Assembly (NCBI GenBank): GCA_017428945.1
Contig: JAFRPW010000023.1
Span: 1-62,123 of the forward strand
Direction: 5' to 3'
DNA length: 62,123 bases
Source: Bacteroidales bacterium
GTDB lineage: Bacteria; Bacteroidota; Bacteroidia; Bacteroidales; UBA932
Part shown: positions 741-55,168 of the stretch, piece after piece
How positions within the stretch are numbered: position 1 is the first letter of the stretch
Layout of the letters: every line of letters starts with the position of its first letter
The notes under the pieces: generated by a model
Seen by the model: the letters and a program-made list of their open reading frames with translations, nothing else
What the model was told of the DNA's origin: nothing
The model's database searches: none
Made by a program: the position numbers and the translations under genes

Positions 741-768
741 GTCCCTGAAAATGGCGTTTTTCAGGGAC
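741..768. repeat. 28-nt hairpin, single copy of the intergenic hairpin family
   Basis: The two 11-nt arms GTCCCTGAAAA and TTTTCAGGGAC pair perfectly around the 6-nt loop TGGCGT. The loop and the 28-nt length match the units at 2327, 2378 and 3781-3990, although the arm sequence differs. It lies between the small ORF and the 3' end of the minus-strand glycosyltransferase gene. Confidence 0.75.
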
Positions 769-790
769 GGCAGCGTAAAGAAGGATGGAA

Positions 791-1735
791 TCAGATTCTG
801 TCGCTGACCTGGTAGTTGTTCCGGCCGGGGGCGGAACGGGATACCATCTCGCCAATGAAGCCGGCGAGGAATAGCATTACGCCAAGTACCAGGGCCACAA
901 GGGCAAGGTAGAAGAGCGGCTGGTCCGTGACGGCGCGGTACTTGAGGCCCTGGCCCTGGAGCACCAGTTTCTCCACAATTATCCAGACGGCCATAACAAA
1001 GCCCACCAGGAACATAAGGATGCCGCTGGTGCCAAAAAAGTGCATTGGCTTGCCGCCGAAACGGGACAGGAACCATAGGCTCATAAGGTCCAGGAAGCCG
1101 TTCACGAAGCGGTCCATGCCAAACTTAGACTTACCGAACTTGCGCTTCTGGTGCACTACCGGCTTCTCCCCTATCCTGTTGAAGCCGGCGTTCTTTGCAA
1201 GGTATGGAATGTAGCGGTGCATCTCTCCGTATACCTCTATATTCTTTACCACATCGCGGCGATATGCCTTGAGGCCGCAGTTCATGTCGTGAAGTTTTAT
1301 GCCGGTGACGCGACGGGCTGTGGCGTTATAGAGCTTTGATGGAAGGTTCTTGGTGACGGGGTTGTCCTTGCGGTGCTGCTTCCAGCCGGACACAAGGTCA
1401 TAACCTTCTTCGCGTATCATGCGTACCATTTCCGGGATCTCTTCCGGGGAGTCCTGGAGGTCTGCATCCATGGTTACCACGATGTCTCCTTCGGCGGCGG
1501 CGAAGCCCTCAAACAGGGCGGCCGATTTGCCGTAGTTGCGGCGGAAGCGGATGCCGCGGATATGGTTTCCGTCTTTTGCCAGTTTGGAGATGAAGTCCCA
1601 GGATCCGTCCGTGGAGCCATCATCAATGAAGATGATCTCGTAGGAGAAGTCCTCGAGCGCACGGTCTATCCAGGCGGTAAGTTCCGGCAGGGATTCGCGC
1701 TCGTTAAGAAGGGGTATTACGATAGAGATATCCAT
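791..1735 (-). CDS. Family 2 glycosyltransferase, membrane-anchored (dolichyl-phosphate-mannose synthase-like)
   Basis: A 314-residue inverting GT2 enzyme. The N-terminal GT-A domain starts MDISIVIPLLNE and carries DDGSTDGS (residues 38-45) and the metal/nucleotide motif DADLQ (90-94). The MNCGLKAYRR and QKRKFGKSKFG segments are typical of the DPM1/GtrB/ArnC branch, which moves a sugar from a nucleotide donor to a polyprenyl phosphate on the cytoplasmic face of the inner membrane. Two C-terminal hydrophobic segments (about 230-255 and 268-292) would anchor it. The start lies 3 nt after the stop of the DUF4199 gene, so the two form an operon, a pairing I recall as common in Bacteroidetes. The sugar and acceptor cannot be read from the sequence. 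Confidence 0.88.
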   Translation of the reverse strand: MDISIVIPLLNERESLPELTAWIDRALEDFSYEIIFIDDGSTDGSWDFISKLAKDGNHIRGIRFRRNYGKSAALFEGFAAAEGDIVVTMDADLQDSPEEIPEMVRMIREEGYDLVSGWKQHRKDNPVTKNLPSKLYNATARRVTGIKLHDMNCGLKAYRRDVVKNIEVYGEMHRYIPYLAKNAGFNRIGEKPVVHQKRKFGKSKFGMDRFVNGFLDLMSLWFLSRFGGKPMHFFGTSGILMFLVGFVMAVWIIVEKLVLQGQGLKYRAVTDQPLFYLALVALVLGVMLFLAGFIGEMVSRSAPGRNNYQVSDRI

Positions 1736-1738
1736 AAT

Positions 1739-2305
1739 CTATTGTTCGTCGGGAGCATTGGGGTCGTCGTCCGGAGTGCCGTCAAAAAGCCTCTGGATAA
1801 AGACGTATCTGGACATGATGGCGCTGAGGACGGTCCCGTACAGGAAGCAGTACAGCCACTCGAATATGAAGGTTCCCAGCGGCAGTTTGTCCACCACCCG
1901 GCCCATGGAATCTATCTCAGAGGACGATAACTGCAGCTGCTGGGACAGCTGGCCAATCATGGTGTCCATGGCGTCCGCCGGCATCTTCATGATGATGAGG
2001 GCGTGGGCCGATGCCACCAGAAGACCGCTCAGCAGTGCAGCCCTGCGGCCGAACCTGTACGAATCCTGGATGGTTACACCGTAATAGTTGTCCTTGAGGC
2101 GAATCATCCGCTTTCTCATAAGGACGATGCACCCGGCAAACTCTGCAATCCACAGCACAACGCCTGTTGCCTGGATAAGGAACAGCTTTCCGGTTCCGGC
2201 AACAAACTGCTTTCCCATGAGGCAGGCAATTGATACGGCAGCAAAGAACAGTCCAGTTACCGCGGCCTCGTTCCACAGTGCGTTATTGTCCAGGTTTTTC
2301 TTCAT
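1739..2305 (-). CDS. DUF4199-type integral membrane protein
   Basis: A 188-residue protein starting at ATG 2305 (MKKNLDNNALWNEA). A TTG three codons upstream is less likely because it overlaps the -7 box at 2313-2320. It has about four hydrophobic segments (about residues 15-35, 45-62, 85-105 and 145-170). The motif YRFGRRAALLSG and the overall layout match the DUF4199 family, whose function is unknown. The C-terminus is acidic. It is the first gene of a two-gene unit with the GT2 enzyme, so a role in envelope glycan or lipid-linked sugar metabolism is plausible but inferred only from position. Confidence 0.8.
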   Translation of the reverse strand: MKKNLDNNALWNEAAVTGLFFAAVSIACLMGKQFVAGTGKLFLIQATGVVLWIAEFAGCIVLMRKRMIRLKDNYYGVTIQDSYRFGRRAALLSGLLVASAHALIIMKMPADAMDTMIGQLSQQLQLSSSEIDSMGRVVDKLPLGTFIFEWLYCFLYGTVLSAIMSRYVFIQRLFDGTPDDDPNAPDEQ

Positions 2306-2312
2306 AATACGC

Positions 2313-2320
2313 AAATATAG
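2313..2320 (-). promoter_or_regulatory. -7 box TATATTTG for the DUF4199-GT2 operon
   Basis: Reads TATATTTG on the minus strand and ends 7 nt before the ATG at 2305, predicting almost no 5' leader. Confidence 0.6.
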
Positions 2321-2326
2321 TCATTT

Positions 2327-2407
2327 GTCCGGAAAAAACGCCATTTTCCCGGACGGTGATGCCAAAAACGGGTCTCCGTCCGGAAAAAACGCCATTTTCC
2401 CGGACGG
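2327..2407. repeat. Two tandem 28-nt hairpins, 51-bp period
   Basis: Two identical 28-nt hairpins at 2327-2354 and 2378-2405 have left arm GTCCGGAAAAA, loop ACGCCA and right arm TTTTCCCGGAC (10 of 11 pairs). They are separated by a 23-nt linker containing GCCAAAAACGGG. The loop is the reverse complement of the TGGCGT loop at 741. The array lies between the divergent DUF4199 and serpin genes. Confidence 0.8.
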
Positions 2408-2463
2408 CGGGGGGCAGGGCGGTGCAAGATAGGGAGATAATTTGATTTATCATTCAGAATGAA

Positions 2464-2471
2464 TACATTTG
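2464..2471 (+). promoter_or_regulatory. -7 box TACATTTG of the serpin gene
   Basis: TACATTTG ends 4 nt before the ATG at 2476, so the transcript is probably leaderless. Confidence 0.6.
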
Positions 2472-2475
2472 CAGT

Positions 2476-3777
2476 ATGAAAAGAAGTATACTTATAGCAG
2501 TGCTGTTTGCAGGATGCGTGGCGGCATGCAATCCGGACAATATAAAGGTAAAAGACCCTATCAAGGTGTCATCGCCCCAGCCAAAGGAGCAGATTACAAA
2601 GGTAAGTCTTACCAGTGAGGAACTCGCCATGGTGGGTTATGGCAATGAACTCACGTTCAAGATGCTTCCTTTGCTCAAGGAAGGAAACAAGAGTTACATT
2701 TTCTCTCCTCTCAGCATACAGTACGCCCTTGGCATGACGGCTAACGGCGCTTCCGGGGAAACGCTTGCCCAGATGCTGGGGGCCATTGGTTTCTGGGGTA
2801 AGAATCAGGAGCTTATATCTTCAGATATCCAGGCAATGAACTCCCTGTGCAACAAGCTTTTGAACGAGCTCCCGGCAGTGGACCTTGACGTGAAACTACA
2901 GCTTGCCGATGCCATCCTGGTCAACGACCTGTACCCCCTTCATCCGGATTTCAAGCAGCTGGTGGAAAGCACCTACTACGCCGCCGTTGAAAACATGTCC
3001 TTTGACGACCCCGCCTACGTTGCGGCACGCATAAACGAGTGGGCTTCCCGCAACACCAACGGCCTCATAAAAAAGATGCTGGAGCCATCGGACATAGACC
3101 CTGCGGCCCTTGCCTTCCTCATGAACGCCCTGTACTTCAAAGCCCCGTGGGTGCCCAGGAATTCGGACCCGCTATTCATGAAGGAATCAACCCGGGACCA
3201 GGAGTTCTATCTTGAAGACGGCAGTGTCAAGGCGGTTCCCACCATGCATACGTACCGGGACTTCAGATATGCAGACCTTGATTCTTTCCGTGTACTTGAG
3301 ATACCTTACGCCAGCGGCAAGTTCGCAATGTACATCCTTCTGCCGGAATCTGTTACTTGCAGTAGCTTTATCGATGTTCTGCCCCGCGTTGACTGGCATG
3401 GAGTCCTCTCCGTGTTGAAAAACCGCTCCGTCAATCTCAGTCTTCCCCGCTTCGAGACTTCCAGCAGCTATCGCCTGAACGATGCCCTTCAGAAACTCGG
3501 CATGACTCAGGCATTTACCAGCGCCGCCCAGTTCGACCGCATGTTTGCCGACCCTGCCGTCCAGGCGTGCATCGACATGGTAATCCAGAAGGCCCGCATC
3601 TCCGTTACGGAGTGGGGCACCGAGGCCGCCGCAGTCACGGTTGTGGGCATGAAGGAGTCCTCCGCATACAATCCCGAGCCCCCCGTGGACTTCATCTGCA
3701 ACCACCCGTTTGCCTATTTGATAGCAGAAAAGACCTCCGGCACAATCCTCTTCGCCGGCGCCTACTGCGGGAACTAG
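2476..3777 (+). CDS. Serpin family protease inhibitor, lipoprotein
   Basis: A 433-residue serpin. The N-terminus is a lipoprotein signal with VAAC as the likely lipobox (Cys18), placing it on the outer surface or in the periplasm. The serpin core begins around residue 50. SPLSIQYALGMTANGASGET (about 75-95) is the conserved helix B region, and the hinge of the reactive-centre loop reads WGTEAAAVTVVG (about 378-390), with small residues as in inhibitory serpins. The end reads FNHPFAYLI-like plus GTILFAGAY, the usual serpin C-terminus. It should trap serine or cysteine proteases by a suicide mechanism. The probable P1 site lies in the GMKESSAYNPEPP segment, and the target is unknown. Length is normal for a bacterial serpin. 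Confidence 0.93.
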   Translation: MKRSILIAVLFAGCVAACNPDNIKVKDPIKVSSPQPKEQITKVSLTSEELAMVGYGNELTFKMLPLLKEGNKSYIFSPLSIQYALGMTANGASGETLAQMLGAIGFWGKNQELISSDIQAMNSLCNKLLNELPAVDLDVKLQLADAILVNDLYPLHPDFKQLVESTYYAAVENMSFDDPAYVAARINEWASRNTNGLIKKMLEPSDIDPAALAFLMNALYFKAPWVPRNSDPLFMKESTRDQEFYLEDGSVKAVPTMHTYRDFRYADLDSFRVLEIPYASGKFAMYILLPESVTCSSFIDVLPRVDWHGVLSVLKNRSVNLSLPRFETSSSYRLNDALQKLGMTQAFTSAAQFDRMFADPAVQACIDMVIQKARISVTEWGTEAAAVTVVGMKESSAYNPEPPVDFICNHPFAYLIAEKTSGTILFAGAYCGN

Positions 3778-3780
3778 CCG

Positions 3781-3990
3781 TCCATCCACGGAAATGGCGT
3801 TTTTGGTGGATAAGTTGGCGTTTTGACCGGTTTGTCCACGGAAATGGCGTTTTTGGTGGATAAGTTGGCGTTTTGACCGGTTTGTCCACGGAAATGGAGT
3901 TTTTGGTGGATAAGTTGGCGTTTTGACCGGTTTGTCCACGGAAATGGCCTTTTTGGTGGATAAGTTGGCGTTTTTGGTGGATGGGTGAAG
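3781..3990. repeat. Four tandem 50-bp hairpin units
   Basis: Four units repeat at exactly 50 bp (GTCCACGGAAATGG at about 3784, 3834, 3884 and 3934). Each has a 28-nt hairpin (left arm GTCCACGGAAA, loop TGGCGT, right arm TTTTGGTGGAT) and a 22-nt linker (AAGTTGGCGTTTTGACCGG then TTT). Units 1 and 2 are near identical. Later units have single changes in the loop. The array lies between the serpin stop and the thrS promoter. The open frames on both strands here arise from the 50-bp period and are not genes. Confidence 0.9.
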
Positions 3991-4011
3991 GGACTTTACG
4001 TGAAAAATTGC

Positions 4012-4019
4012 TATATTTG
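4012..4019 (+). promoter_or_regulatory. -7 box TATATTTG upstream of thrS
   Basis: A clear TATATTTG lies 82 nt before the thrS ATG. This is one of the few promoters here with a long leader (4020-4101), which could carry control elements, though I see no recognisable riboswitch or T-box. Confidence 0.6.
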
Positions 4020-4101
4020 CAAGCTATTCGCACGGGCAGGCAGGTTGCCCACGTGGGGATGGCGAGTGAAAGACATTGTAAGTAATAAACTCAAAGCAAT
4101 T

Positions 4102-6063
4102 ATGATTGACATCAAGTTCCCTGACGGGAGTGTAAGACAGTATGAATCCGGAGTTACCGGATACGAAGTGGCAATGGGCATAAGCCCCAGGTTGGCAGAA
4201 CAGGTTCTGGCCGTGAATATCAAGAGGCCCGATGAGCCGGAGACCTCCAAAGGTACCACAATAGATGTTACGCGCCCCATCACGGAGAATGTAGAGATAC
4301 GTCTTCTCAAGTGGGAGGATGACGAGGCCAAGAAAGTGTTCTGGCACTCATCGTCCCACCTTATGGCAGAGGCGCTGGAGGCACTTTTCCCCGGCGTCAA
4401 GTTCGGAATAGGCCCTGCAATCGAGGCAGGCTTCTACTACGATGTTGACATGAACGGCCGCACCCTTACGGACGCGGACTTCAAGGCCATCGAGGACAAG
4501 ATGCTGGAACTGGCACGCGGCAAGGAAGACTTCTGCCGCATAGAGGTCTCCAAGGCCGATGCCATGAAATACTTCACGGAGAAAGGCGACCAGTACAAGC
4601 AGGAACTCATCTCCGAGCTTGAAGACGGCACCATCACCTATTACACCAACGGTCACTTCACGGACCTCTGCCGCGGCCCTCATCTCAAGAACACCGAGGT
4701 CATCAAGGCCGTGAAGGTGCTCTCCCTTGCCGGCGCATACTGGAGGGGCGATGAAACCCGCCAGCAGCTCACCCGCATTTACGGCATCACCTTCCCCAAG
4801 AAGAGCATGCTGGACGAGTACCTCGTTGTCCTGGAAGAGGCCAAGAAGAGGGATCACCGCAAGATTGGCAAGGAAATGGAACTCTTCACCTTCTCCCAGA
4901 GGGTGGGTTCCGGCCTGCCCTTGTGGCTGCCAAGAGGCGCCGCCCTGCGCAACACCCTCCAGAGCTTCCTTGCAAAGAAGCAGGCGGAGTACGGCTACCT
5001 GCCGGTAGTGACTCCGCACATCGGTGCAAAGGAGCTTTACGTCACTTCAGGCCACTACGCCAAATACGGAAAGGACTCCTTCCAGCCCATCCACACCCCC
5101 CAGGAAGGCGAGGAATACCTCCTCAAACCCATGAACTGCCCCCACCACTGCGAAATCTACCGCAGCGCGCCCCGCAGCTACAGGGACCTTCCTCTCAGGT
5201 TCGCAGAGTTCGGCACCGTGTACCGCTATGAGCAGTCCGGTGAACTCCACGGCCTCACCCGCGTCCGCAGCTTCACCCAGGACGATGCCCACCTTTTCTG
5301 CCGCCAGGACCAGCTCCAGGAAGAGTTCGAGAAGGTTATCGACCTCATCCTCTATGTCTTCAAGACCCTCCACTTTGACAAGTTCACCGCCCAGGTGAGC
5401 CTCCGCGACCCCAAGAACCCCCAGAAGTACATCGGTTCCGATGAAAACTGGAACAAGGCGGAGCAGGGTATCATAGACGCTGCCAAGAAGAAGGGCCTCC
5501 CTTACGTGGTGGAGACCGGCGAGGCCGCTTTCTACGGCCCCAAGCTGGACTTCATGGTGAAGGACGCCATTGGCCGAAGCTGGCAGCTGGGAACAATCCA
5601 GGTAGACTACAACCTCCCGGAACGCTTTGAACTGGAGTACGTTGACTCTGATGGCAGCCGCAAGCGCCCCGTCATGATTCACCGCGCACCCTTCGGTTCC
5701 CTGGAGCGTTTTGTGGCAGTCCTTCTGGAGCACACAGCTGGTCATCTGCCGCTCTGGCTGCACCCGGATCAGGTAAAAGTGCTCCCCGTGAGCGAAAAAT
5801 ATGCAGATTATGCGAAAAAAGTTGTAAATCTGCTAAATAATTCCGAAATTCGCGCCTCCATAGACGACCGTAACGAGACTCTTGGCAAACGAATCAGGGA
5901 GACATCCCTCATGAGAGTTCCGCTGCTTGTCATCGTTGGAGAGAAAGAGCAGGCGGAAGAGTCTGTCTCTGTGCGCCGTGGAGCCGTCGACCAGGGTTCC
6001 ATGAGCGTCCCTGCCTTTGTGGAGTACGTCCGCAAGGCTGTGGAAGAAGAACTGGCCAGATAA
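4102..6063 (+). CDS. thrS: Threonyl-tRNA synthetase
   Basis: A 653-residue class II synthetase that charges tRNA-Thr in the cytoplasm. The start is ATG 4102 ([17 protein letters not shown]), the canonical beginning of the TGS domain. The open frame extends 39 codons further upstream but starts inside the promoter. After the TGS domain come the editing domain ([12 protein letters not shown], about residue 80), the catalytic core with [10 protein letters not shown] (about 343, zinc-binding Cys and His) and [12 protein letters not shown], and a C-terminal anticodon-binding domain (about 555-650). infC, rpmI and rplT follow in the classic order, so this gene heads a translation operon. Confidence 0.97.
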
Positions 6064-6076
6064 GTTTAACTTTTAA

Positions 6077-6091
6077 AGGAGCAAAGCTATC
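6077..6091 (+). promoter_or_regulatory. Shine-Dalgarno AGGAG and AUC start codon of infC
   Basis: AAAGGAG (6075-6081) is followed 7 nt later by ATC (6089-6091) and then GCA ACG CCT. A strong Shine-Dalgarno is rare in this window. The frame is closed by TAA at 6074-6076, so the start must lie between 6077 and the first ATG at 6137. ATC has the right spacing. Confidence 0.7.
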
Positions 6092-6679
6092 GCAACGCCT
6101 TACAGACCCAAGCCCTCGGGCCCCAAGCGCAAACCCATGCAGCAGATGGGCCCCAACAAGCAGGACGAAAACGAACTGCGCATCAACCGTGAAATCACCG
6201 CCCCCCAGGTGCGCCTGGTAGGCGAGAACATCCCGGAACAGGGCATTTACCCCATAGCCAAGGCCATGGCCATGGCTCAGGAACAGGAACTGGACCTGGT
6301 GGAGATCAGCGCAAAGGCAGACCCGCCCGTTTGCAAGATTCTGGACTACCAGAAGTACCTGTACCAGCAGCGTAAGAGAGCTAAGGAGATGAAGGCAAAC
6401 GCTGCGAAGATAGTTATCAAGGAAATCCGCTTCGGCCCCAACACGGACGAGCACGACTTCCAGTTCAAGCTCAAGCATGCTCAGGAGTTCCTGCAGGAAG
6501 GCTCCAAGGTCAAGGCCTCGATATTCTTCCGCGGACGCTCCATCCAGTTTGCCCAGCAGGGTGAAAAGCAGCTTCTGCGTTTCGCCGTGGAGCTTGAAGA
6601 GTTCGGCCGGCCGGAGAACATGCCGGTCCTGGAAGGCAAGAGGATGACAATGATGATTGCTCCTATAAAGAAGAAATAA
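6089..6679 (+). CDS. infC: Translation initiation factor IF-3, predicted AUC start
   Basis: IF-3 binds the 30S subunit, blocks premature 50S joining and checks start-codon pairing. I place the start at ATC 6089, giving 196 residues beginning (f)M-A-T-P-Y-R-P-K-P. The first ATG (6137) would remove 16 residues and has no Shine-Dalgarno. The N domain runs from ELRINREI to QYLYQQRKR-like residues, and the C domain has KEIRFGPNTDEHDFQFKLKHA and the ending VLEGKRMTMMIAP. IF-3 genes in other bacteria use AUU or similar rare starts for autoregulation, so a rare codon here fits the family. It begins 25 nt after thrS and precedes rpmI. Confidence 0.93.
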   Translation: MATPYRPKPSGPKRKPMQQMGPNKQDENELRINREITAPQVRLVGENIPEQGIYPIAKAMAMAQEQELDLVEISAKADPPVCKILDYQKYLYQQRKRAKEMKANAAKIVIKEIRFGPNTDEHDFQFKLKHAQEFLQEGSKVKASIFFRGRSIQFAQQGEKQLLRFAVELEEFGRPENMPVLEGKRMTMMIAPIKKK

Positions 6680-6685
6680 CCCACA

Positions 6686-6735
6686 CGTCATCCCCAACTT
6701 GTTTGGGGATCCCCGATCAGGTCGGGGGTGACGGT
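6686..6735. repeat. Composite palindromic repeat between infC and rpmI
   Basis: Two adjacent hairpins (ATCCCCAACTTGTTTGGGGAT and CCCCGATCAGGTCGGGG) are enclosed by outer CGTCATC/GGTGACG arms. They belong to the same class as the copies at 295 and 52076. The element lies inside the thrS-infC-rpmI-rplT unit and would be transcribed. Confidence 0.7.
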
Positions 6736-6765
6736 TAAAATATTAATTATTAATTGTTTAAAACA

Positions 6766-6960
6766 ATGGCAAAGCTTAAAACCAACTCCGGTGCCAAAAA
6801 GCGCTTTACGCTTACCGGATCGGGAAAGATCAAGAGGAAGCACGCTTACCACAGCCACATCCTCACCAAGAAGACCAAGAAGCAGAAAAGGAACCTGGAC
6901 CACTTCGCCATCCTCGAGAAGGACGACCTGGGCCGCGTAAAAGAGCTTCTGGTAATGTAA
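6766..6960 (+). CDS. rpmI: 50S ribosomal protein L35
   Basis: A 64-residue basic protein starting [14 protein letters not shown] at ATG 6766. The upstream TTG in frame is not needed. It contains the L35 signature [20 protein letters not shown] and ends [13 protein letters not shown]35 is a component of the large subunit. It lies 86 nt after infC and 75 nt before rplT, the standard infC-rpmI-rplT order, which is often controlled by L20 feedback. Confidence 0.96.
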
Positions 6961-7035
6961 TTATGTTTAACTGGAAAGCAGTCGAAAGCGCATCGTCACG
7001 GACAATGCCACTGCCTCCAAAAAGAGTAAAGATTT

Positions 7036-7380
7036 ATGCCTAGATCAGTTAATTCTGTTGCCTCAAGGGCACGCCGCAAGAAGATCCTCTCCAGGACCCG
7101 CGGTAATTTCCTCTCCCGCAAGAACGTCTGGACGGTTGCAAAGAACACCTATGAGAAAGGTCTCACCTATGCATACCGTGACAGAAAGGCCAAGAAGCGC
7201 GAATTCCGCTCCCTGTGGATACAGCGTATCAACGCCGCCGCCCGCCAGTACGGTCTCACCTACTCCCAGCTTATGGGCCGCCTTGCGAAGCAGAACATCG
7301 GTCTCAACCGTAAAGTTCTCGCAGACCTTGCTATGAACAATCCTCAGGCTTTTGAGGCTATTGTCAACTCTGTAAAATAG
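7036..7380 (+). CDS. rplT: 50S ribosomal protein L20
   Basis: A 114-residue protein of normal length. It starts [16 protein letters not shown], and the middle [21 protein letters not shown] is the L20 signature. It binds 23S rRNA early in 50S assembly and in other bacteria represses its own operon. The start is ATG 7036. lepB follows 12 nt after its stop, so the two are probably cotranscribed. Confidence 0.97.
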
Positions 7381-7392
7381 TTCTTTGAAATT

Positions 7393-8697
7393 GTGAGCCC
7401 GAAGGAATTCATCCGGAACAAGTGGGTCAGACTGGCCTTTTGGTCGGTTCTGTACATTGCCTGGGTGGTATGGCTCGGAAATTATTGGTGGCTCCTTGGC
7501 CTGGGCATCATCTTCGACCTCATCGTCACAAAGAAGGTGAAATGGCTCTTCTGGAAGAAAGAGTACGCGCCCGGGGAGAAGCACAACTTCTGGCTGGACT
7601 GGCTTGACGCCATCATCTTCGCCGTGGTTGTTGTAACCTTCATCAATATTTTCTTCTTCCAGGCCTTCAAGATTCCTTCATCGTCCATGGAGAGCTCCCT
7701 GTATACGGGAGATCACCTGTTCGTTTCCAAGCTCACCTATGGTCCGCGCCTGCCCCAGACGCCGCTCACCATACCTTTCACGCACAACCGTGCATTCGGA
7801 AAGGAGTCGTATTCCACGGCCATCCAGTCCGATTACAGGAGGCTCAAAGGTTTCAGGAGCGTTCAGAAGGGAGACGTCGTGGTCTTTGGGTTCCCCAACG
7901 GTGACACCGTCCTTTCCAAACGCCCGGCAGATGATTACTATGCCTGGGTCCGTACATACGGCAGGGAAAAGACAATCAAGCAGTTCGGCCCCATCATCGT
8001 CCGCCCGTCGGACAAGAAGGACCACTACGTGAAAAGGTGCGTCGCCACCGCCGGAGACACCCTGGAAATCCGTAACGGAGTTGTCTGGGTGAACGGCGTA
8101 AAGGAGCCGGACTATCCGGGAAAGCAGATGACCTACAGGGTCGTCACCACCGGAAACCGCATAAACAACCTCAGGCTTGAGGAGCTTGGACTGAACATCG
8201 CAGAGCTCTACTATGACTCCCGCCTTCCCGGTTATCCCGCGATGCCGCTTACGGAAGGTATGCTGGAAAAGGTAAAGGCCATGAAGTCTGTAGTGGAAGT
8301 TGTTCCCAACATCGAGACCTTCCCCTCCAGCGGCCAGGACACGGAACTTTTCCCCTTCACCGGGAAAACCCGCTGGACTGCCGATAACTTCGGCCCGCTC
8401 TGGATTCCCAAAAAGGGCGTCACCGTGCAGATCACCCCGGAAACCCTGCCCTTCTACGAGCGCATAATCCGGGACTATGAGCACAGCTCCACAGACGTAT
8501 CGGAGTACACATTCAAGCAGGACTATTATTTCATGATGGGGGATAACAGGCACAACAGCCTGGATTCCAGATACTGGGGCTTCGTACCGGAAGACCACAT
8601 AGTAGGAACGCCCTCCGTCATTTGGCTCTCTACGGACGCTACAAAGAGCTTCCCCAGGAGCATCAGGTGGAAGAGATTTCTCAAACACCGCTTTTAA
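7393..8697 (+). CDS. lepB: Signal peptidase I, large Bacteroidetes form
   Basis: A 434-residue S26 leader peptidase starting at GTG 7393, 12 nt after rplT. Hydrophobic segments near residues 14-45 and 72-90 precede the catalytic Ser98 in KIPSSSME. The general base is Lys214 in YVKRCVATAGD. The family C-terminal box reads MMGDNRHNSLDSRYWGFVP (about 383-401). It removes signal peptides from exported proteins at the periplasmic face of the inner membrane. It is longer than the 324-residue E. coli enzyme because of a roughly 130-residue insert between the Lys motif and box E (about 240-370), a size I recall as usual for this phylum. Confidence 0.95.
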   Translation: MSPKEFIRNKWVRLAFWSVLYIAWVVWLGNYWWLLGLGIIFDLIVTKKVKWLFWKKEYAPGEKHNFWLDWLDAIIFAVVVVTFINIFFFQAFKIPSSSMESSLYTGDHLFVSKLTYGPRLPQTPLTIPFTHNRAFGKESYSTAIQSDYRRLKGFRSVQKGDVVVFGFPNGDTVLSKRPADDYYAWVRTYGREKTIKQFGPIIVRPSDKKDHYVKRCVATAGDTLEIRNGVVWVNGVKEPDYPGKQMTYRVVTTGNRINNLRLEELGLNIAELYYDSRLPGYPAMPLTEGMLEKVKAMKSVVEVVPNIETFPSSGQDTELFPFTGKTRWTADNFGPLWIPKKGVTVQITPETLPFYERIIRDYEHSSTDVSEYTFKQDYYFMMGDNRHNSLDSRYWGFVPEDHIVGTPSVIWLSTDATKSFPRSIRWKRFLKHRF

Positions 8698-8723
8698 AGT
8701 AAACAATTAAAAAGTATAATATT

Positions 8724-8966
8724 ATGTCAAAGGTTTGTCAGATAACCGGCCGCAAGAGAATGATCGGCAACAACGTCGCCCATTCCAAGCTTCGCACTAA
8801 GCGCGACTTCGCCCTGAACCTCAAGACCAAGAAGTTCTGGTCAGAGACAGAGCAGCGTTTCATCACCCTCAAGGTTACCACCAAGGGTATGCGTATTATC
8901 GAGAAGAACGGTCTCGATGCAACACTTAAGGATGCCCAGGCAAAGGGCTATGTAAACCTCGTTTAA
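8724..8966 (+). CDS. rpmB: 50S ribosomal protein L28
   Basis: An 80-residue protein starting MSKVCQITGRKRMIGNNVAHS, the L28 signature, and ending GYVNLV. It lies 26 nt after lepB and 13 nt before rpmG. The rpmB-rpmG-DUF4295 order is a common Bacteroidetes arrangement. Confidence 0.97.
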   Translation: MSKVCQITGRKRMIGNNVAHSKLRTKRDFALNLKTKKFWSETEQRFITLKVTTKGMRIIEKNGLDATLKDAQAKGYVNLV

Positions 8967-8979
8967 AACCTGTTGAATT

Positions 8980-9168
8980 ATGGCAAAGAAACAGAAAGGA
9001 AACAGGGTGCAGGTCATCCTGGAGTGCACAGAACAGAAGGCAAGTGGTGTTCCCGGCATGTCCCGTTACATCACCACCAAGAACAAGAAGAATACCCCGG
9101 ACCGTCTGGAGCGTATGAAGTACAACCCTTACCTCAAGAAGGTTACCCTTCACAAAGAGGTCAAGTAA
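8980..9168 (+). CDS. rpmG: 50S ribosomal protein L33
   Basis: A 62-residue protein starting [20 protein letters not shown]. The [21 protein letters not shown] segment is the L33 core. It lacks the CxxC pairs of zinc-binding L33 forms, having only one Cys, so it is the zinc-independent type. It precedes a short DUF4295 gene. Confidence 0.96.
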
Positions 9169-9187
9169 AATAGAGGAGATCTAAACT

Positions 9188-9346
9188 ATGGCAAAAAAAG
9201 CAGTTGCAACCTTCGATGCAAAAGCCGGTGCAAAGCACATGGTGAAGGTTATCCGCATGGAAAAGAGCCCCAAGACCGGTGCCTACGTGTTTGTAGAGCA
9301 GCTTGTTGAAGAGGGTAAAGAGAAAGAGTTCTTCAACAAGAAGTAA
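9188..9346 (+). CDS. DUF4295 small basic protein
   Basis: A 52-residue protein, ATG 9188 to TAA 9344-9346: MAKKAVATFDAKAGAKHMV at the start and EGKEKEFFNKK at the end. It matches the DUF4295 family, a short protein found directly after rpmG across Bacteroidetes. Its position in a ribosomal protein operon and its basic composition suggest a ribosome-associated role, but this is inference. It lies 19 nt after rpmG and is followed by a terminator. Confidence 0.88.
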   Translation: MAKKAVATFDAKAGAKHMVKVIRMEKSPKTGAYVFVEQLVEEGKEKEFFNKK

Positions 9347-9365
9347 GTTTTTCCGACTAAGAATT

Positions 9366-9398
9366 AAGCCGTCCTTGAAAAAGGGCGGCTTTTTTTTG
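9366..9398 (+). terminator. Rho-independent terminator of the rpmB-rpmG operon
   Basis: AAGCCGTCCTT pairs with AAGGGCGGCTT (one G-T pair) around GAAA and is followed by a run of T residues. Confidence 0.9.
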
Positions 9399-9400
9399 CT

Positions 9401-9523
9401 AAAATTGACGATATAGACCTCAAGACCTATCCCTACTACGACCACAACCTCAGCGCCAAGGCATCCGACAAGATGGAGGAAATCTTCTTCAAGAGCGTTG
9501 ACTTTATAGTGGCCAATATCTAG
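9401..9523 (+). pseudogene. Orphan 3' gene fragment
   Basis: An open stretch of 40 codons ending at TAG 9521-9523 reads KIDDIDLKTYPYYDHNL and then SAKASDKMEEIFFKSVDFIVANI. Composition and codon use look like real protein, but there is no start codon and it lies directly behind a terminator, 4 nt from the ftsY stop. It is best read as the remaining C-terminus of a deleted gene. The family is not recognised. Confidence 0.4.
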
Positions 9524-9527
9524 ATCC

Positions 9528-10451
9528 CTATTTCTCCAGATCTTCCATCTGGAACAGGGCTTCCACGAACTCTTTCTTGTCGAAGACTTTAAGGTCGTCG
9601 ATGCCTTCTCCAATTCCAAGGTACTTTACCGGTACCTTGAACTGGTCTGTGATTCCTACAACCACGCCGCCCTTGGCGCTGCCGTCTATCTTGGTGATGG
9701 CAAGCGAGGTGACCTTGGTGGCACGGGAGAACTCCCTGGCCTGCACAAAGGCGTTCTGGCCGGTGCTGGCGTCAAGGACCAGCATCACATCGTGCGGAGC
9801 GTCCGGGACCACCTTTGCGCAGACGTTGCGTATCTTGGTGAGCTCGTTCATGAGGTCTATGCGGTTGTGGAGGCGGCCGGCGGTGTCTATGAGCACAACA
9901 TCGGCATCCCTTGCAACGGCGGCTTTCACGCTGTCGTAGGCCACGGCGGCGGGGTCTGCCCCGGTGGGCTGCTTCACGATATCCACTCCGGCCCTTTCCG
10001 CCCATATTACAAGCTGGTCTACGGCGGCTGCGCGGAAGGTATCGGCCGCACCAATAACCACCTTCTTGCCCTGGGCCTTGAGCATTGCGGCCATCTTGCC
10101 GATGGTGGTGGTCTTTCCCACGCCGTTAACGCCCACTACAAGCATGACGTACGGCTTCTTGGAAAAGTCGAAGGGCTCTACGGGAGTGTCCGGCCCCATG
10201 AGGTTAGATATCTCGTCGCGGATTATGGCGGTGAGTTCCTCCATGTCCACGTACTTGTCCTTCTCCACTCGGTCCTGGATGTTGTCCAGGAGTTTCAGGG
10301 TGGTGTCTACGCCCATGTCAGAGCTCAGGAGCGCCTCTTCAAGCGCATCCAGCACGTTGTCGTCCACCCTGGACTTTGCCGTAAACACCCTCCCCAGCTT
10401 CTGGAAGAAGTTGAGGTTAGTTTTTTTTACACCTTTGTCAAAAATACCCAT
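9528..10451 (-). CDS. ftsY: Signal recognition particle receptor FtsY
   Basis: A 307-residue SRP GTPase starting at ATG 10451 (MGIFDKGVKKTNLNFF). The upstream extension of the frame overlaps the -7 box. A helical N domain (about 10-85) is followed by the G domain: GVNGVGKTTT (G1, about 106-115), DTFRAAAVDQL, DTAGRLHNR (G3), TKIDGSAKGG (G4) and GIGEGIDDLKVFD at the end. It receives SRP-ribosome complexes at the inner membrane. The long acidic A domain of E. coli FtsY is absent, as in many bacteria. It is divergent from pheT across a 430-bp region packed with hairpins. Confidence 0.96.
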   Translation of the reverse strand: MGIFDKGVKKTNLNFFQKLGRVFTAKSRVDDNVLDALEEALLSSDMGVDTTLKLLDNIQDRVEKDKYVDMEELTAIIRDEISNLMGPDTPVEPFDFSKKPYVMLVVGVNGVGKTTTIGKMAAMLKAQGKKVVIGAADTFRAAAVDQLVIWAERAGVDIVKQPTGADPAAVAYDSVKAAVARDADVVLIDTAGRLHNRIDLMNELTKIRNVCAKVVPDAPHDVMLVLDASTGQNAFVQAREFSRATKVTSLAITKIDGSAKGGVVVGITDQFKVPVKYLGIGEGIDDLKVFDKKEFVEALFQMEDLEK

Positions 10452-10464
10452 AGCAGCGGCAAAG

Positions 10465-10472
10465 ATAGCAAA
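10465..10472 (-). promoter_or_regulatory. Probable -7 box TATCTTTG of ftsY
   Basis: The minus strand reads GCTATCTTTGCCGCTGCT just before the ftsY ATG. TATCTTTG fits TAnnTTTG, with about 13 nt or fewer to the start codon. Coordinates are good to within a few bases. Confidence 0.5.
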
Positions 10473-10506
10473 AAAACCGCACCTGTGCCACCCCCGGCAT
10501 CTCTCT

Positions 10507-10587
10507 GGTTGCATTTTGGGCCATTATTGCACCCACAGTCATGCTATCGGCACCGCTGCGGCAGCATTTTACACCGTTATTGCTCCC
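10507..10587. repeat. Two 28-nt imperfect hairpins, 53-bp period
   Basis: Units at 10507-10534 and 10560-10587 share GCATTTT...CCATTATTGC/CCGTTATTGC cores. Their arms are GGTTGCA/TGCACCC and GGCAGCA/TGCTCCC, so the changing base in the arm is matched on the other side. The 28-nt length matches the other hairpin units of the window. Confidence 0.5.
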
Positions 10588-10627
10588 CAACAGATGCTGC
10601 GAGCTTGATGCTGCCAGTTTGAAGCCT

Positions 10628-10797
10628 CGCGAAACAGACGTACAGACCGTATGGTCTGTTTCAGCGGCACCTGAAGTGCGGTAATTGGCGTTTTGGCATG
10701 GTTTGGGTCTCGCGAAACAGATGAAACGGATCTTTGGTATGTTTCGCGTGATAGCCACGTCATCCCAGGCCACGAAAACGTGGGAAAGCGTGGCCTG
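10628..10797. repeat. Three further hairpins in the ftsY-pheT intergenic region
   Basis: First, GAAACAGAC/GTCTGTTTC within about 10630-10662 (9-bp arms). Second, CGCGAAACA/TGTTTCGCG within about 10711-10748. Third, GGCCACG/CGTGGCC within about 10768-10795, exactly 28 nt and with the same arms as the pair at 55089. No coding sequence is convincing in 10473-10852. Confidence 0.65.
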
Positions 10798-10852
10798 ACG
10801 TGACATGACCAGCCCGGAAGCACAAAATATTGTTTTTGAAAGAGGAAAACTG

Positions 10853-10860
10853 TATCTTTG
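10853..10860 (+). promoter_or_regulatory. -7 box TATCTTTG of the pheT operon
   Basis: TATCTTTG lies 21 nt before ATG 10882, with a TTTG-containing -33 candidate near 10835-10838. Confidence 0.6.
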
Positions 10861-10881
10861 TATGATTATAACGATACAGAT

Positions 10882-13326: not shown

Positions 13327-13847
13327 GGCTTCGTTTCTGGCATATAGCGCTTGTATTCCTGGCGGTGGCTTCCTGCACCGGGCCGCGCACCATCCCGCGC
13401 GACAAGCTGGGAGACATCTTCCACGACATGTTCCTCCAGGACCAGCAGATAAAGAGCGACTTTTCGCTTAAACGCATAGCGGACACGTCGCTGGTTTACC
13501 AGGGAATATTCAAGGAATACGGCTACGATACGGACGATTACCTCTACACCATCAACAAGTATATCAAGGACCCGGAGAAACTATCCAAGGTGTTTGAGAA
13601 GGTGGCAGAACGCCTCCTGGAGGAGTCCAAGGACATAAGGAAGGAGAAAGACTTCCTGGAGTGGCGCACAAGGTTCCTGGCAATTTACAAGCACAGGATA
13701 GACACCACTTCGCTGCCCCGTGTTCCCCTTGGGGCGGTGGATACCATGTATTTCCGCCTGCACAAGGACCAGGTGCAGTTCTTCCCTCCGCCGGATACCC
13801 TTTCTCCGGTTCTGGATACGATGATATTTCAGATAGACAGCCTATGA
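13323..13847 (+). CDS. DUF4296 lipoprotein
   Basis: A 174-residue protein whose ATG overlaps the pheT stop (ATGA). The lipobox is VASC (Cys18). The mature part, with LGDIFHDMFLQDQQIKSDF and YQGIFKEYGYDTDDYLYTINKYIKDP, matches the DUF4296 family of Bacteroidetes lipoproteins of unknown function. It probably sits in the periplasm or outer membrane. The stop overlaps the start of the radical SAM gene, so translation of pheT, this gene and the next is probably coupled. Confidence 0.85.
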   Translation: MRLRFWHIALVFLAVASCTGPRTIPRDKLGDIFHDMFLQDQQIKSDFSLKRIADTSLVYQGIFKEYGYDTDDYLYTINKYIKDPEKLSKVFEKVAERLLEESKDIRKEKDFLEWRTRFLAIYKHRIDTTSLPRVPLGAVDTMYFRLHKDQVQFFPPPDTLSPVLDTMIFQIDSL

Positions 13848-14593: not shown

Positions 14594-14597
14594 AACT

Positions 14598-15488: not shown

Positions 15489-15519
15489 ACCCTTTCAGAA
15501 CCCTTGTCTTGGCCCTCTC

Positions 15520-15757
15520 GTCCGGAAAACAGGTGTTTTTTCCGGATGTAAGGGCCAAAACTGTGTCTCCATCCACCAAAAACGCCATTTCCGTGGACAA
15601 CCCCCCGTTTTGGCCAACTTGTCCACCAAAATCCCGCATTTCCGTGGACAAACTCCGGTTTTGGCCAACTTGTCCACCAAAAACGCCCGTTTCCGTGGAC
15701 AAACCCCCGTTTTAGCCAACTTGTCCACCAAAAACGCCATTTCCGTGGACGGAGGGG
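15520..15757. repeat. Five tandem hairpin units, 50-51-bp period, mixed polarity
   Basis: The first unit, at 15520-15547, has arms GTCCGGAAAA.../...TTTTCCGGAT and a 23-nt linker. Four more follow at about 15571, 15621, 15671 and 15721 with the arms TCCACCAAAA/TTTCCGTGGA, which is the reverse complement of the array at 3781. Loops differ (ACGCCA, TCCCGCA, ACGCCCG, ACGCCA). Linkers carry CCGTTTTGGCCAACTTG. The array lies between deoC and the GH92 promoter. Open frames here come from the period. Confidence 0.88.
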
Positions 15758-15786
15758 TGGGATTTGTATAAATGACGGTCTTTGAG

Positions 15787-15794
15787 TATATTTG
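15787..15794 (+). promoter_or_regulatory. -7 box TATATTTG of the GH92 gene
   Basis: TATATTTG ends 5 nt before ATG 15800, predicting a leaderless mRNA. Confidence 0.6.
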
Positions 15795-15799
15795 TTACC

Positions 15800-18334: not shown

Positions 18335-18343
18335 CCCCTCCTG

Positions 18344-18422
18344 TCCACGGAAACAGGGGTTTTGGTGGACAAGTTGGCTAAAACCGGGGTTTGTCCACGG
18401 AAATGCGGGGTTTTGGTGGATG
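18344..18422. repeat. Two tandem hairpin units, 50-bp period
   Basis: Two GTCCACGGAAA...TTTTGGTGGA hairpins (28 and 29 nt) with different loops are separated by a 22-nt linker with GGCTAAAACCGGGG. They begin 10 nt after the GH92 stop. Polarity is the same as the array at 3781. Confidence 0.85.
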
Positions 18423-18427
18423 GGGGT

Positions 18428-18462
18428 AGCAAAAAAGCGGCACCTTGAACAAGGGCCGCTTT
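18428..18462 (-). terminator. Terminator downstream of tRNA-Leu, probably bidirectional
   Basis: On the minus strand AAAGCGGCCCTTG pairs with AAGGTGCCGCTTT and is followed by a T run. It lies just after the tRNA 3' end and can also serve the GH92 gene on the plus strand. Confidence 0.85.
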
Positions 18463-18466
18463 AATG

Positions 18467-18550
18467 TGCGCGAAATCAGAGTCGAACTGACACGTCCTTT
18501 CGGACACTACCTCCTGAGAGTAGCGCGTCTACCAATTCCGCCATCCGCGC
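18467..18550 (-). tRNA. tRNA-Leu(CAG)
   Basis: On the minus strand the 84-nt cloverleaf has acceptor GCGCGGA pairing with TTCGCGC, an anticodon arm CTACT-CTCAGGA-GGTAG with anticodon CAG, a long variable arm (TGTCCGAAAGGACG) as expected for tRNA-Leu, and a T arm with GTTCGACTC. CCA is not encoded. Confidence 0.93.
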
Positions 18551-18566
18551 ATGATTTTTGGGACTG

Positions 18567-52124: not shown

Positions 52125-53540
52125 ATGAGCTTCATCGACAAAGACTTCATGCTGCAGACAAAGACTGCACGCAAACTTTACCACGAGCATGCAGAGAACA
52201 TGCCCATCATCGACTATCACTGCCACCTGGTTCCCCAGCAGATAGCAGAGAACATCCAGTTCCGCGACATCACCCAGCTATGGCTGGTTGACGGCCACTA
52301 CGGAGACCATTACAAGTGGCGTGCAATGCGTGCAAACGGCGTTTCCGAAGACTACCTCACCGGCGGCAAGTACAACTCCTGGGAGACTTTCCAGAAGTGG
52401 GCCGAAACCGTTCCCTACACCATGAGGAACCCCCTCTACCACTGGACCCACCTCGAGCTCAGCCGCGTCTTCGGCATCGACAAGCTCCTTTCTCCCAAGA
52501 CCGCACGTGAAATCTTTGACGAGTGCAACGCAAAGCTTGCTACGGAAGAGTTCCGCGGACAGGCCCTCATCCGCAAGTTCGGAGTTGAGGTAGTATGCAC
52601 CACGGACGATCCCGCCGACGACCTCCGCTACCACAAGATGATCCTCGAGAAACCCTTCGGCACCAAGGTCATCCCCGCATGGCGTCCGGACAAGGCCATG
52701 GCAATTGAAGATCCCAAGTCCTATAAAGAGTACCTTGTCAAGCTTGGCGAGGCTGCCGATATCATGATCGACTCTTACACTGACCTCATCGAGGCCCTGC
52801 AGCGCAGGCACGACTTCTTCGCCTCCATGGGCTGCAAGCTCTCAGACCACGGCCTTGAGACCTTCTACGCCGCAGATTACAAGCAGATAGAGATAGAGGC
52901 CATCTTCAAGATGGTTCTCCTTGGAAGACGCGTATCCGAGCTGGAACTCAACAAGTTCCGCAGCGCATTCCTGCACGATATGGCCGTCATGGACGCAAAG
53001 GCCGGCTGGGCACAGCAGTTCCATGTTGGCGCCATCCGCAACAACAACTCCAAGATGTTCGGCCTGGTTGGTCCCGATACCGGCTTCGACGCCATCCACG
53101 ACCTTCCCACCGCAGCCGCCGGCCACAAGTTCTTCGACCGTCTGGCCTCTGAGGACGCCCTGGCAAAGACCATCCTCTACTGCCTCAATCCCAAGGACAA
53201 CGAGGTCATGATGACCATGGCATACACCTTCAACGACGGCACCTTCCCCGGCAAGATGCAGTTCGGCAGCGGCTGGTGGTTCCTGGATCAGGAAGTTGGC
53301 ATGCGCCGCCAGATGGATGCCCTGAGTGTCCTTGGCCTGTTCTCCCGCTTTGTGGGCATGCTCACGGACAGCCGTAGCTTCATCTCCTACCCCCGCCACG
53401 AGTACTTCCGCCGCATCCTCTGCGACGTCCTTGGCAAGGACGTTGAGGAAGGCAAGCTCCCTGCCTCCGAACTTGACTTCATCGGCAAGATGGTAGAGGA
53501 CATATCCTACAACAACGCAAAGAACTACTTTAACTTCTAA
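52125..53540 (+). CDS. uxaC: Glucuronate/galacturonate isomerase
   Basis: A 471-residue isomerase converting galacturonate to tagaturonate in the cytoplasm. The start is ATG 52125 (MSFIDKDFMLQTKTARKLYH). The frame continues upstream through the repeat and terminator but has no promoter there. Motifs are NMPIIDYHCHLVPQQIAEN (metal-binding HxH), VVCTTDDPADDLRYH, QFHVGAIRNNNS and the ending SRSFISYPRHEYFRRILCD. The length is normal. It is followed 1 nt later by uxaA. Confidence 0.97.
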   Translation: MSFIDKDFMLQTKTARKLYHEHAENMPIIDYHCHLVPQQIAENIQFRDITQLWLVDGHYGDHYKWRAMRANGVSEDYLTGGKYNSWETFQKWAETVPYTMRNPLYHWTHLELSRVFGIDKLLSPKTAREIFDECNAKLATEEFRGQALIRKFGVEVVCTTDDPADDLRYHKMILEKPFGTKVIPAWRPDKAMAIEDPKSYKEYLVKLGEAADIMIDSYTDLIEALQRRHDFFASMGCKLSDHGLETFYAADYKQIEIEAIFKMVLLGRRVSELELNKFRSAFLHDMAVMDAKAGWAQQFHVGAIRNNNSKMFGLVGPDTGFDAIHDLPTAAAGHKFFDRLASEDALAKTILYCLNPKDNEVMMTMAYTFNDGTFPGKMQFGSGWWFLDQEVGMRRQMDALSVLGLFSRFVGMLTDSRSFISYPRHEYFRRILCDVLGKDVEEGKLPASELDFIGKMVEDISYNNAKNYFNF

Positions 53541-53541
53541 T

Positions 53542-55050
53542 ATGAAGTATATAAAAATCAACCCCGCCGACAACGTCGCCGTGGCGCTCCAGGACCTCTC
53601 CAAAGGCGAGGTGGTGGAGGGCGTTACCCTGAAGGTAGATGTGCCAAGGGGGCATAAGATTGTCCTTAAAGACCTGAAAGCAGGGGAGAACGTGATAAAG
53701 TACGGTTTCCCCATCGGCCATGTGACCGTGGATGCCGCACAGGGCACCATGGTAGACCACAACTGCATCAAGACCAACCTGGAAGGCCTGCTGGAGTATA
53801 AGTACGAACCTATATTTGAGATTGCCGGTCAAGCCGGCAATGACGCTCGTCATGCCCGACCTGATCGGGCATCTCAATATACCTTCAAAGGCTACCGCCG
53901 CTCCGACGGCCAGGTGGGCGTCCGCAACCAGATATGGGTAATCCCCACCGTGGGCTGTGTGAACGGCATCTGCCAGGAGATAGTGGAAGCCTTCAAGCAG
54001 GAGTGTCCCGGCCATCCCGGCGTGGATGCCATAGTGGCTTTCCCGCACAACTACGGCTGCTCCCAGCTTGGCGGAGACCATGAGAACACCCGCACCATCC
54101 TTGCCGATATGGTTCACCATCCCAACGCCGGCGGCGTGCTGGTTGTGAGCCTGGGCTGTGAGAACAACCAGTTGGACGCTTTCCGCGAGCTGGTAGGCCC
54201 CGTGGACGAGTCCCGCGTTCGCATGTTCGTCACCCAGAAGGTAAAGGACGAGGTCGAGTACGGCCTTCAGCAGCTAAGGGAAATCTACGCCGTGGCTTCC
54301 AAGGATGTCCGCGTGGACGTTCCGGTTTCAGAGCTCCGAGTTGGCCTCAAGTGCGGTGGATCCGACGGCCTTTCCGGCATCACTGCAAACCCGCTTCTTG
54401 GCGTTTTCAGCGACTGGATCGTAGCCCAGGGCGGCACCACGGTGCTTACAGAGGTTCCGGAAATGTTCGGTGCAGAGACCATCCTCATGAACCGCTGCCA
54501 GGACAAGGCAACATTCGACAAGACAGTGCACCTTATAAACGATTTCAAGGAGTACTTCATGAAGCAGGGAATGCCTGTGTATGAGAATCCTTCTCCCGGC
54601 AACAAGGCCGGCGGCATCTCCACCCTTGAAGAGAAGAGCCTTGGCTGCACGCAGAAGTGCGGCAAGAGCATCGTCAGGGGAGTGCTGAAGTATGGCGAGA
54701 GGCTGTCTGTAAAGGGGCTTAACCTTCTGAGCGCACCCGGCAACGACCTGGTGGCCTCCACCGCCCTTGCATCGGCCGGCTGCCAGCTGGTTCTGTTCAC
54801 CACGGGCCGCGGCACTCCGTTCGGGAGTTTCGTGCCCACCATGAAGATATCCACCAACACTCCGCTCTATGAGGGTAAACCCCGCTGGATAGACTTCAAC
54901 GCCGGCGTCCTTGCCCAGGACGAGCTCATGGACACCGTAGCCCCGCGCTTTATAGACTACGTGCTGTCCGTTGCTTCCGGAGAACCCGTGAACAACGAGA
55001 AGAACGGCTACCGCGAGCTCGCCATCTTCAAGCAGGGCGTGACGCTGTAG
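53542..55050 (+). CDS. uxaA: Altronate dehydratase, with a repeat-encoded insert
   Basis: A 502-residue enzyme dehydrating altronate to KDG. The N-terminal SAF-like domain (1-90) is joined to the catalytic C-terminal domain (about 113-502, YRRSDGQVGVRNQIWVIPTVGCVNGICQ; NYGCSQLGGDHENT; KCGGSDGLSGITANP; STLEEKSLGCTQKCGKS). Between them residues 93-113 read about EIAGQAGNDARHARPDRASQ, encoded by two palindromic repeats (53822-53875). They fall in the interdomain linker, so activity is probably kept. Iron-binding Cys residues are intact. Confidence 0.95.
   Translation: MKYIKINPADNVAVALQDLSKGEVVEGVTLKVDVPRGHKIVLKDLKAGENVIKYGFPIGHVTVDAAQGTMVDHNCIKTNLEGLLEYKYEPIFEIAGQAGNDARHARPDRASQYTFKGYRRSDGQVGVRNQIWVIPTVGCVNGICQEIVEAFKQECPGHPGVDAIVAFPHNYGCSQLGGDHENTRTILADMVHHPNAGGVLVVSLGCENNQLDAFRELVGPVDESRVRMFVTQKVKDEVEYGLQQLREIYAVASKDVRVDVPVSELRVGLKCGGSDGLSGITANPLLGVFSDWIVAQGGTTVLTEVPEMFGAETILMNRCQDKATFDKTVHLINDFKEYFMKQGMPVYENPSPGNKAGGISTLEEKSLGCTQKCGKSIVRGVLKYGERLSVKGLNLLSAPGNDLVASTALASAGCQLVLFTTGRGTPFGSFVPTMKISTNTPLYEGKPRWIDFNAGVLAQDELMDTVAPRFIDYVLSVASGEPVNNEKNGYRELAIFKQGVTL
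53822..53875. repeat. Two palindromic repeats inside the uxaA coding sequence
   Basis: ATTGCCGGTCAAGCCGGCAAT plus GACG, then ATGCCCGACCTGATCGGGCAT, in frame with uxaA. Both match the element class at 6686 and 52076. Confidence 0.78.
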
Positions 55051-55088
55051 GGGCCTGCCCCGCTTGACCGTCCCTTGGCGTCACCCCA

Positions 55089-55168
55089 GGCCACGAAAAC
55101 GCCCAAAAACGTGGCCGCGGATGACAAGGCCGTCACGCCAGGCCACAAAAACAGCCAAAACCGTGGCC
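55089..55168. repeat. Two hairpin units, 52-bp period
   Basis: GGCCACG...CGTGGCC at 55089-55116 and GGCCAC...GTGGCC at 55141-55168 are each 28 nt, with A-rich interiors and a 24-nt linker. The arms are the same as the hairpin near 10768. The array lies between uxaA and the second PL1 gene. Confidence 0.8.

Follow-up and report, generated by a model that had tools for sequence, protein, structure and literature searches.

Tandem hairpin units in a Bacteroidales genome are very probably REP-like mobile repeats associated with RAYT-type genes

Repetitive extragenic palindromes (REPs) are known from Gammaproteobacteria, where they are associated with REP-associated tyrosine transposases (RAYTs). 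A REPIN, two inverted REPs in one longer hairpin, is described as the replicative unit (PMC3116915). In Bacteroidetes, TnpA-Y1 genes of subclass 2.6 are reported to have atypical secondary structures that lack GT[AG]G on their flanks, a median HUH-to-Y spacing of 82 aa and the Y motif YIH[QN]NP (PMC6006769). REPs tagged with CGTC are said, in the cited part of their source, to have no dedicated transposase (PMC3733652). We analysed a stretch of 62,123 nucleotides (contig JAFRPW010000023.1 of assembly GCA_017428945.1, here called the window) from a Bacteroidales bacterium whose genome, G000, has 2.6 Mb. It contains short hairpins, often in tandem, at seven sites. According to our analysis, these hairpins very probably constitute a REP/BIME-like (BIME, bacterial interspersed mosaic element) set of mobile repeats in this Bacteroidales genus, non-autonomous and spread by cognate RAYTs. 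The statement in a preliminary description of this DNA that no named family fits was too strong, given the Bacteroidetes TnpA-Y1 genes with atypical structures and no GT[AG]G in the excerpt cited (PMC6006769).

Palindromes of 28-29 nt are present at all seven sites (Table 1). The preliminary description had placed them in units of 50-53 bp, which we can broadly confirm: units measure 50-52 bp and the linkers between tandem hairpins 22-24 nt. By Tandem Repeats Finder, the periods are 50, 51 and 52 at 3785-3974, 15572-15750 and 55079-55180, respectively. Most hairpins have the 28 nt that had been called almost invariable, and some have 29. The sites had also been taken as one family, and this view has to be abandoned. 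We distinguish a main spelling (GTCCAC), a second spelling (GTCC followed by CTG, GCA or CGG), a mixed cluster at 10507-10797 and the GGCCAC hairpins at 55089. The main spelling consists of arms GTCCAC/GTGGAC, an A/T step and a variable GC-rich loop, with a linker consensus AAGTTGGCCAAAACnGGGGTTT in ten aligned window units. Its exact pattern, GTCCACGGAAA-n-TTTTGGTGGA, occurs 53 times in the genome (32 places in our grouping) vs 0 for the reversed control pattern, and the main-spelling family is thus far above chance expectation. The excess of hairpins over shuffled sequence therefore holds for this family and barely for 28-nt hairpins at large: a scan of the window for any 28-nt hairpin gave 57, vs a mean of 43.4 and a maximum of 56 in 10 shuffles. 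Since this generic excess is small, we do not count it as evidence.

The covariance-model search suggested in the preliminary description was run on the genome with a model, R1, trained on the ten window units. At E<=1 it listed 155 hits, a figure that counts the palindrome on either strand, with 150 of 2437 first-look candidates scored. Adding the sites at 741 and 10768, which R1 does not list, and leaving out three weak ones (C30:62484, C31:39821 and C47:111402, two of them inside genes), the hairpin family in all spellings seen by R1 is found at about 60 genome places. Successive hairpins in the fetched loci of this genome are 50 nt (30 cases) or 51 nt (52 cases) apart in 82 of 86 spacings, after our own filtering. 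Second-spelling hairpins (window sites 741, 2327 and 15520) have GTCC/GGAC ends with inner triplets CTG, GCA or CGG, and where two copies adjoin, they follow each other at 51 nt. Two foldings are available to an array, either 28-nt hairpins or alternate 34-nt hairpins that span the linker. The dinucleotide 5' of a hairpin is in most cases TT within arrays (136/172) and TT or CC at array ends (97/150). Another palindrome, AATGTAAAAGGTTCGG..CCGAACCTTTTACATT, adjoins GTCCAC units at L005, ~1590-1700, and a similar one is seen in L024.

The preliminary description had suggested a REPIN-like element or a MITE (miniature inverted-repeat transposable element) and a search for a RAYT-like transposase, and this idea has been borne out. 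A gene at C18:52512-53423, which surfaced only through a motif scan of the loci around hairpins and not in a PF01797 search, encodes a RAYT-type (TnpA-REP) HUH/Y1 protein that has 303 aa and the motifs MSNHIH and YTIRNP. GTCCAC units lie on both sides: one ~210 nt upstream (~52270-52303) and three downstream (~53432-53560), the first of which begins 8 nt past the stop codon. In an alignment of 29 C18-type sequences (A4; one relative with an internal stop was omitted), the HUH histidines H63 and H65 and the tyrosine Y121 are invariant, with 56 residues from H65 to Y121 and a Y motif Y-x-IRNP. At E<=0.01, 22 of these 29 proteins match the NCBIfam model REP_Tyr_transpos and 5 match Pfam Y1_Tnp. 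The PF01797 search had found four further RAYT-like genes in the genome (L001, L002, L003 and L004), each adjoined, by eye, by other hairpins. Compared by hhalign with an alignment of 30 out of 80 L001-type RAYTs (A5), A4 gave a probability of 100 and E 1.9e-44 over 279 columns. Judged by its sequence, the C18 protein is a divergent RAYT-family member.

The association recurs across the genus. A search with the C18 RAYT at E<=1e-10 gave matches, more distant RAYT types among them, in 155 of the 200 genus genomes, one of which is G000 itself. We examined 30 homologous RAYT loci, those returned among the genus-search matches, by a search blind to structure for 44-60-bp tandem arrays, counting as near those within 400 nt of the RAYT. 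An array was near the gene in 20 of the 30 loci; 31 arrays were near (1.318/kb) vs 2 elsewhere (0.034/kb), and 30 of the 31 have periods of 50-52, the other one 45. Among 223 L001-type loci in named records, we took the best 80 (79 titled Bacteroidales or Bacteroidia, one Clostridia). Here an array was near in 14 loci, with 21 near vs 2 elsewhere (0.336 vs 0.005/kb) and periods of 48-53. Perfect arms in the units are longer than in dinucleotide shuffles, at 6.97 vs 4.48 bp for the C18 type (31 arrays) and 5.90 vs 4.26 bp for the L001 type (21 arrays).

The preliminary description had also claimed that the arms covary. Between loci of different genomes, the arms vary yet stay paired. In a set of 15 28-nt hairpins of our own choice (14 belonging to the 30 loci, plus one window hairpin), 86 of 90 outer cells are paired vs 57 (maximum 75) when the 3' arms are redealt, with up to four Watson-Crick types per pair position. 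As this choice favours pairing, the comparison of arm length with shuffles is the fairer test. Within G000 the claim fails. ATCCAC..GTGGAC, with A..C as the outermost pair, accounts for 32 of the 225 anchored hits (A..C occurs 63 times altogether if chance hits are counted), and some second-spelling copies are fully paired while others combine non-complementary inner triplets, so strict covariation is unsupported there.

Arm spelling varies between genomes of the genus. The 18 congeners and 12 further members of the order that were searched all lack the strict GTCCACGGAAA pattern. Out of 120 other genus genomes, 7 contain R1 matches at E<=1e-6. In the sister genome G063, whose RAYT (C98:6-914) is 87% identical, units of the same GTCCACGGAAA spelling lie at C98:1108-1215, ~200 nt from the gene. 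G050 has GTCCTTG-type arms, with one array 184 nt from its RAYT, and G081 and G052 have GTCCACAAA-type hairpins. The more identical two RAYTs are, the more similar their arrays tend to be (Mantel r 0.55, p 0.0001; n 19, out of 20 array-bearing loci).

Several observations weigh against mobile repeats spread by cognate RAYTs. Transposition itself was not observed. The Mantel signal comes from close pairs (>50% identity); below 50%, which covers 144 of 171 pairs, r is 0.09. GTCCAC arms also adjoin the RAYT of G081, which is 39% identical, and arm spelling alone therefore cannot identify the RAYT. No array was called in 10 of the 30 RAYT loci, and taken singly, just 16 of the 31 array units exceed their shuffled versions at p<=0.05. 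In G060, one of the seven congeners with R1 matches, the match looks like chance and there is no array in the displayed stretch. The five GTGAC hairpins of L001, 51 nt apart, occur only at the L001 locus under a strict pattern (5/5). The C18 RAYT taken alone stays under library cut-offs (Pfam Y1_Tnp E 0.14; no NCBIfam match), and its alignment has no significant PDB chain, the best (E 0.22) being an IS200-type transposase entry; PDB sequence searches with three alignments gave nothing significant. The unpaired GTAG/CGTC foot of canonical REPs is absent from GTCCAC units, as judged from the foot bases and the window sequence. Finally, comparison with the sister genome yielded no cleanly empty counterpart of a GTCCAC array, five of the six sites compared lying at the ends of inverted segments.

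R1 at E<=1 has no match in the fetched flanks of the four other RAYT-like genes of the genome, and on 98 RAYT loci of other types it gave 20 matches at E<=1, the best with E 0.0093. L001 was considered as the GTCCAC mobiliser and rejected, its hairpins being of GTGAC type with the strict pattern confined to its own locus. L002-type repeats occur in five places, two of them at the L002 gene.

Table 1. Hairpin sites in the window (positions in the 62,123-nt stretch)
Feature	Position	Strand	Remark
Single 28-nt hairpin GTCCCTG..CAGGGAC	741..768	+	second spelling
Two 28-nt hairpins GTCCGG..CCGGAC, 51 nt apart	2327..2405 (2327-2354, 2378-2405)	+	second spelling
Four GTCCAC/ATCCAC units, period 50	3784..3983 (hairpins 3784-3811, 3834-3861, 3884-3911, 3934-3961)	+	main spelling
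Imperfect 28-nt hairpin	10507..10534	+	GGCCATTATTGCAC common to this hairpin and the repeats beside the RAYT in L002
28-nt hairpin GGCCACG..CGTGGCC	10768..10795	+	within mixed palindrome cluster 10507-10797
28-nt hairpin GTCCGG..CCGGAT	15520..15547	+	second spelling; adjoins 15571-15750 array
Four GTCCAC units, period 51	15571..15750 (hairpins 15571-15598, 15621-15649, 15672-15700, 15723-15750)	-	main spelling
Two GTCCAC units	18343..18421 (18343-18370, 18393-18421)	+	inverted relative to 15571-15750 array
Two 28-nt hairpins GGCCAC..GTGGCC, 52 nt apart	55089..55168 (55089-55116, 55141-55168)	+	GGCCAC spelling

The hairpins could instead be RNA devices, terminators or stabilisers of mRNA 3' ends, selected at gene ends, with the RAYT linkage incidental. 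We consider this improbable. By crude gene calls, 35 of the 60 places were classed as lying between genes, 17 overlap open reading frame calls and 8 are at edges. Many sites are indeed close to 3' gene ends, which make up 38 of 70 facing ends (median 43 nt), but the other 32 are 5' ends (median 54.5 nt), and the 35 classed places comprise 22 co-directional, 8 convergent and 5 divergent ones. Within window 500-20400, a loose pattern called 24 terminator-like sites vs 20.6 expected (sd 5.0). Four of them overlap these hairpins and a fifth falls in the mixed cluster, yet there is no overall excess. The GC stem followed by a T-run after genes that marks intrinsic terminators is thus not what distinguishes these sites, and the divergent ones do not suit it either, so the terminator guess of the preliminary description is weakened. 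Rfam at gathering scores matched only rRNA and tRNA in the window. An RNA device also leaves unexplained the tandem arrays beside RAYT genes and the units in frame within four genes.

These in-frame units are of the second spelling and stand in open frame within the RibF (L156:1313-2215), CitX (L174:1343-1909), PbpC (L147:880-3180, minus strand) and AroB (L177:1299-2243, minus strand) genes of G000; the DnaX gene of G081 (L189:161-2071) also holds hairpin units in open frame. The added peptide would be, for example, SLKKAVFADG or a repeat of 17 aa, and the 51-bp unit preserves the frame. Rickettsia palindromic elements are likewise palindromic repeats that sit in frame within protein-coding genes. 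By description they are set apart from the units here, which are tandem, REP-like and also intergenic.

Alternatively, the arrays could have arisen by simple tandem duplication or could be a MITE belonging to an ordinary transposon. Recombination or a different transposase would then have spread them, and the Y1 genes would merely have landed in the repeats. The tandem periodicity and the lack of direct proof of RAYT action speak for this, as does the fact that, in the one stretch compared, several hairpin sites lie at the borders of segments whose orientation differs between sister species. Nevertheless, arrays adjoin RAYT genes at 20 of the 30 loci with differing spellings, and array similarity tracks RAYT identity, albeit in close pairs only. 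We give this explanation little probability. The comparison with G063 covered window 343-21000 with six hairpin sites. GTCCAC units are at none of these sites in G063; the site at 3781 has other hairpins there, one of the second spelling. These differences fit gain or loss of units since the split.

The inverted segments deserve a separate description. Window 790-2320, 9560-10467 and 15763-18327 are inverted in G063, and five of their six ends coincide with window hairpin sites, while the G063 junctions of the three segments have no such arrays. The gene at 9528-10514 is turned solely in the window among the seven genomes where it could be placed. Genes 791-2314 have the window orientation in five congeners and are turned in three. 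Arrays as a general cause of local inversions are not supported, as these genes are found both ways and the junctions are mostly array-free by eye, although G080 does show an array at the printed junction of genes 791-2314. In G080 (L274:500-700), ACTGTGTGGAACAGGCCGTTCTGCACAGT hairpins like those beside its RAYT adjoin the counterpart of the gene at window 791-1735.

Retention of the arrays because they serve the host, as BIME-like sites for protein binding or chromosome organisation, is very unlikely as their explanation: size and spacing are conserved and REPs elsewhere have been assigned host roles in the excerpt cited (PMC8266576), and such a role is compatible with spread by RAYTs, but the spelling and, in one compared stretch, the positions vary between congeners.

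Spread by cognate RAYTs could proceed as follows. The RAYT would bind the folded single strand via arm and loop and would use its tyrosine to cut and join it. Units would be copied or moved into new single-stranded targets, those retained being mostly intergenic, and arrays may expand through repeated strand transfer or slippage. Arm spelling would drift alongside the RAYT, giving each genome its own spellings. It is tempting, if speculative, to go further: this might possibly be an undescribed genus-wide class of REPtron, with ~300-aa Y1 proteins whose C-terminal tail looks helix-turn-helix-like by eye, making near-constant 50-52-bp tandem arrays instead of GTAG-tagged REPs. The 51-bp unit would keep the frame and could enter protein genes, and the arrays could continually feed turnover between genes and perhaps also local gene inversion.

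In summary, a previously unexplained hairpin family is now tied to a transposase-like gene. The REP/RAYT idea now takes in a large Bacteroidales genus whose repeats follow another grammar: tandem units of near-constant 50-52 bp with no GTAG foot. Many natural RAYT/repeat pairs in one genus provide material for testing the joint divergence of a Y1 protein and its hairpin. Within the one library searched, we found no description of these hairpin units.

How does this system compare with those described? A CGTC-ended palindrome lies at window 6681-6750, with similar copies at 17617, 18604, 52076 and 53821, and the ~70 nt containing it correspond to ~9 nt in G063, a near-empty site. The CGTC-tagged REPs, reported also from Bacteroidetes in the excerpt cited (PMC3733652), resemble the units studied here in being palindromic repeats, and a palindrome with this tag occurs in the window, but GTCCAC units have no CGTC foot. 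Subclass 2.6 of TnpA-Y1 shares with our system the phylum, the absence of GT[AG]G and hairpins that adjoin the gene but occur at other genomic places too; it differs by description, in the excerpt cited, from the 56 residues between H65 and Y121 and the motif Y-x-IRNP found here, although the spacing measures may differ (PMC6006769). Compared with the REP/BIME/REPIN-RAYT systems (REPtrons) of Gammaproteobacteria, our units lack the GTAG foot, have 6-bp outer arms with A/T steps and repeat in tandem at a near-constant 50-52 bp, and the RAYT, of ~300 aa, is poorly detected by library models. Of what characterises a REP/RAYT system, the foot is absent here, while the RAYT-family gene, the flanking repeats and the dispersed, mostly intergenic copies are all present. 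As in the REPtrons described in the cited parts of PMC2817692 and PMC3116915, there are many short palindromes, largely intergenic, with species-specific spelling and tandem arrays, units lie on both sides of an HUH/Y1 gene, and repeat similarity tracks RAYT identity.

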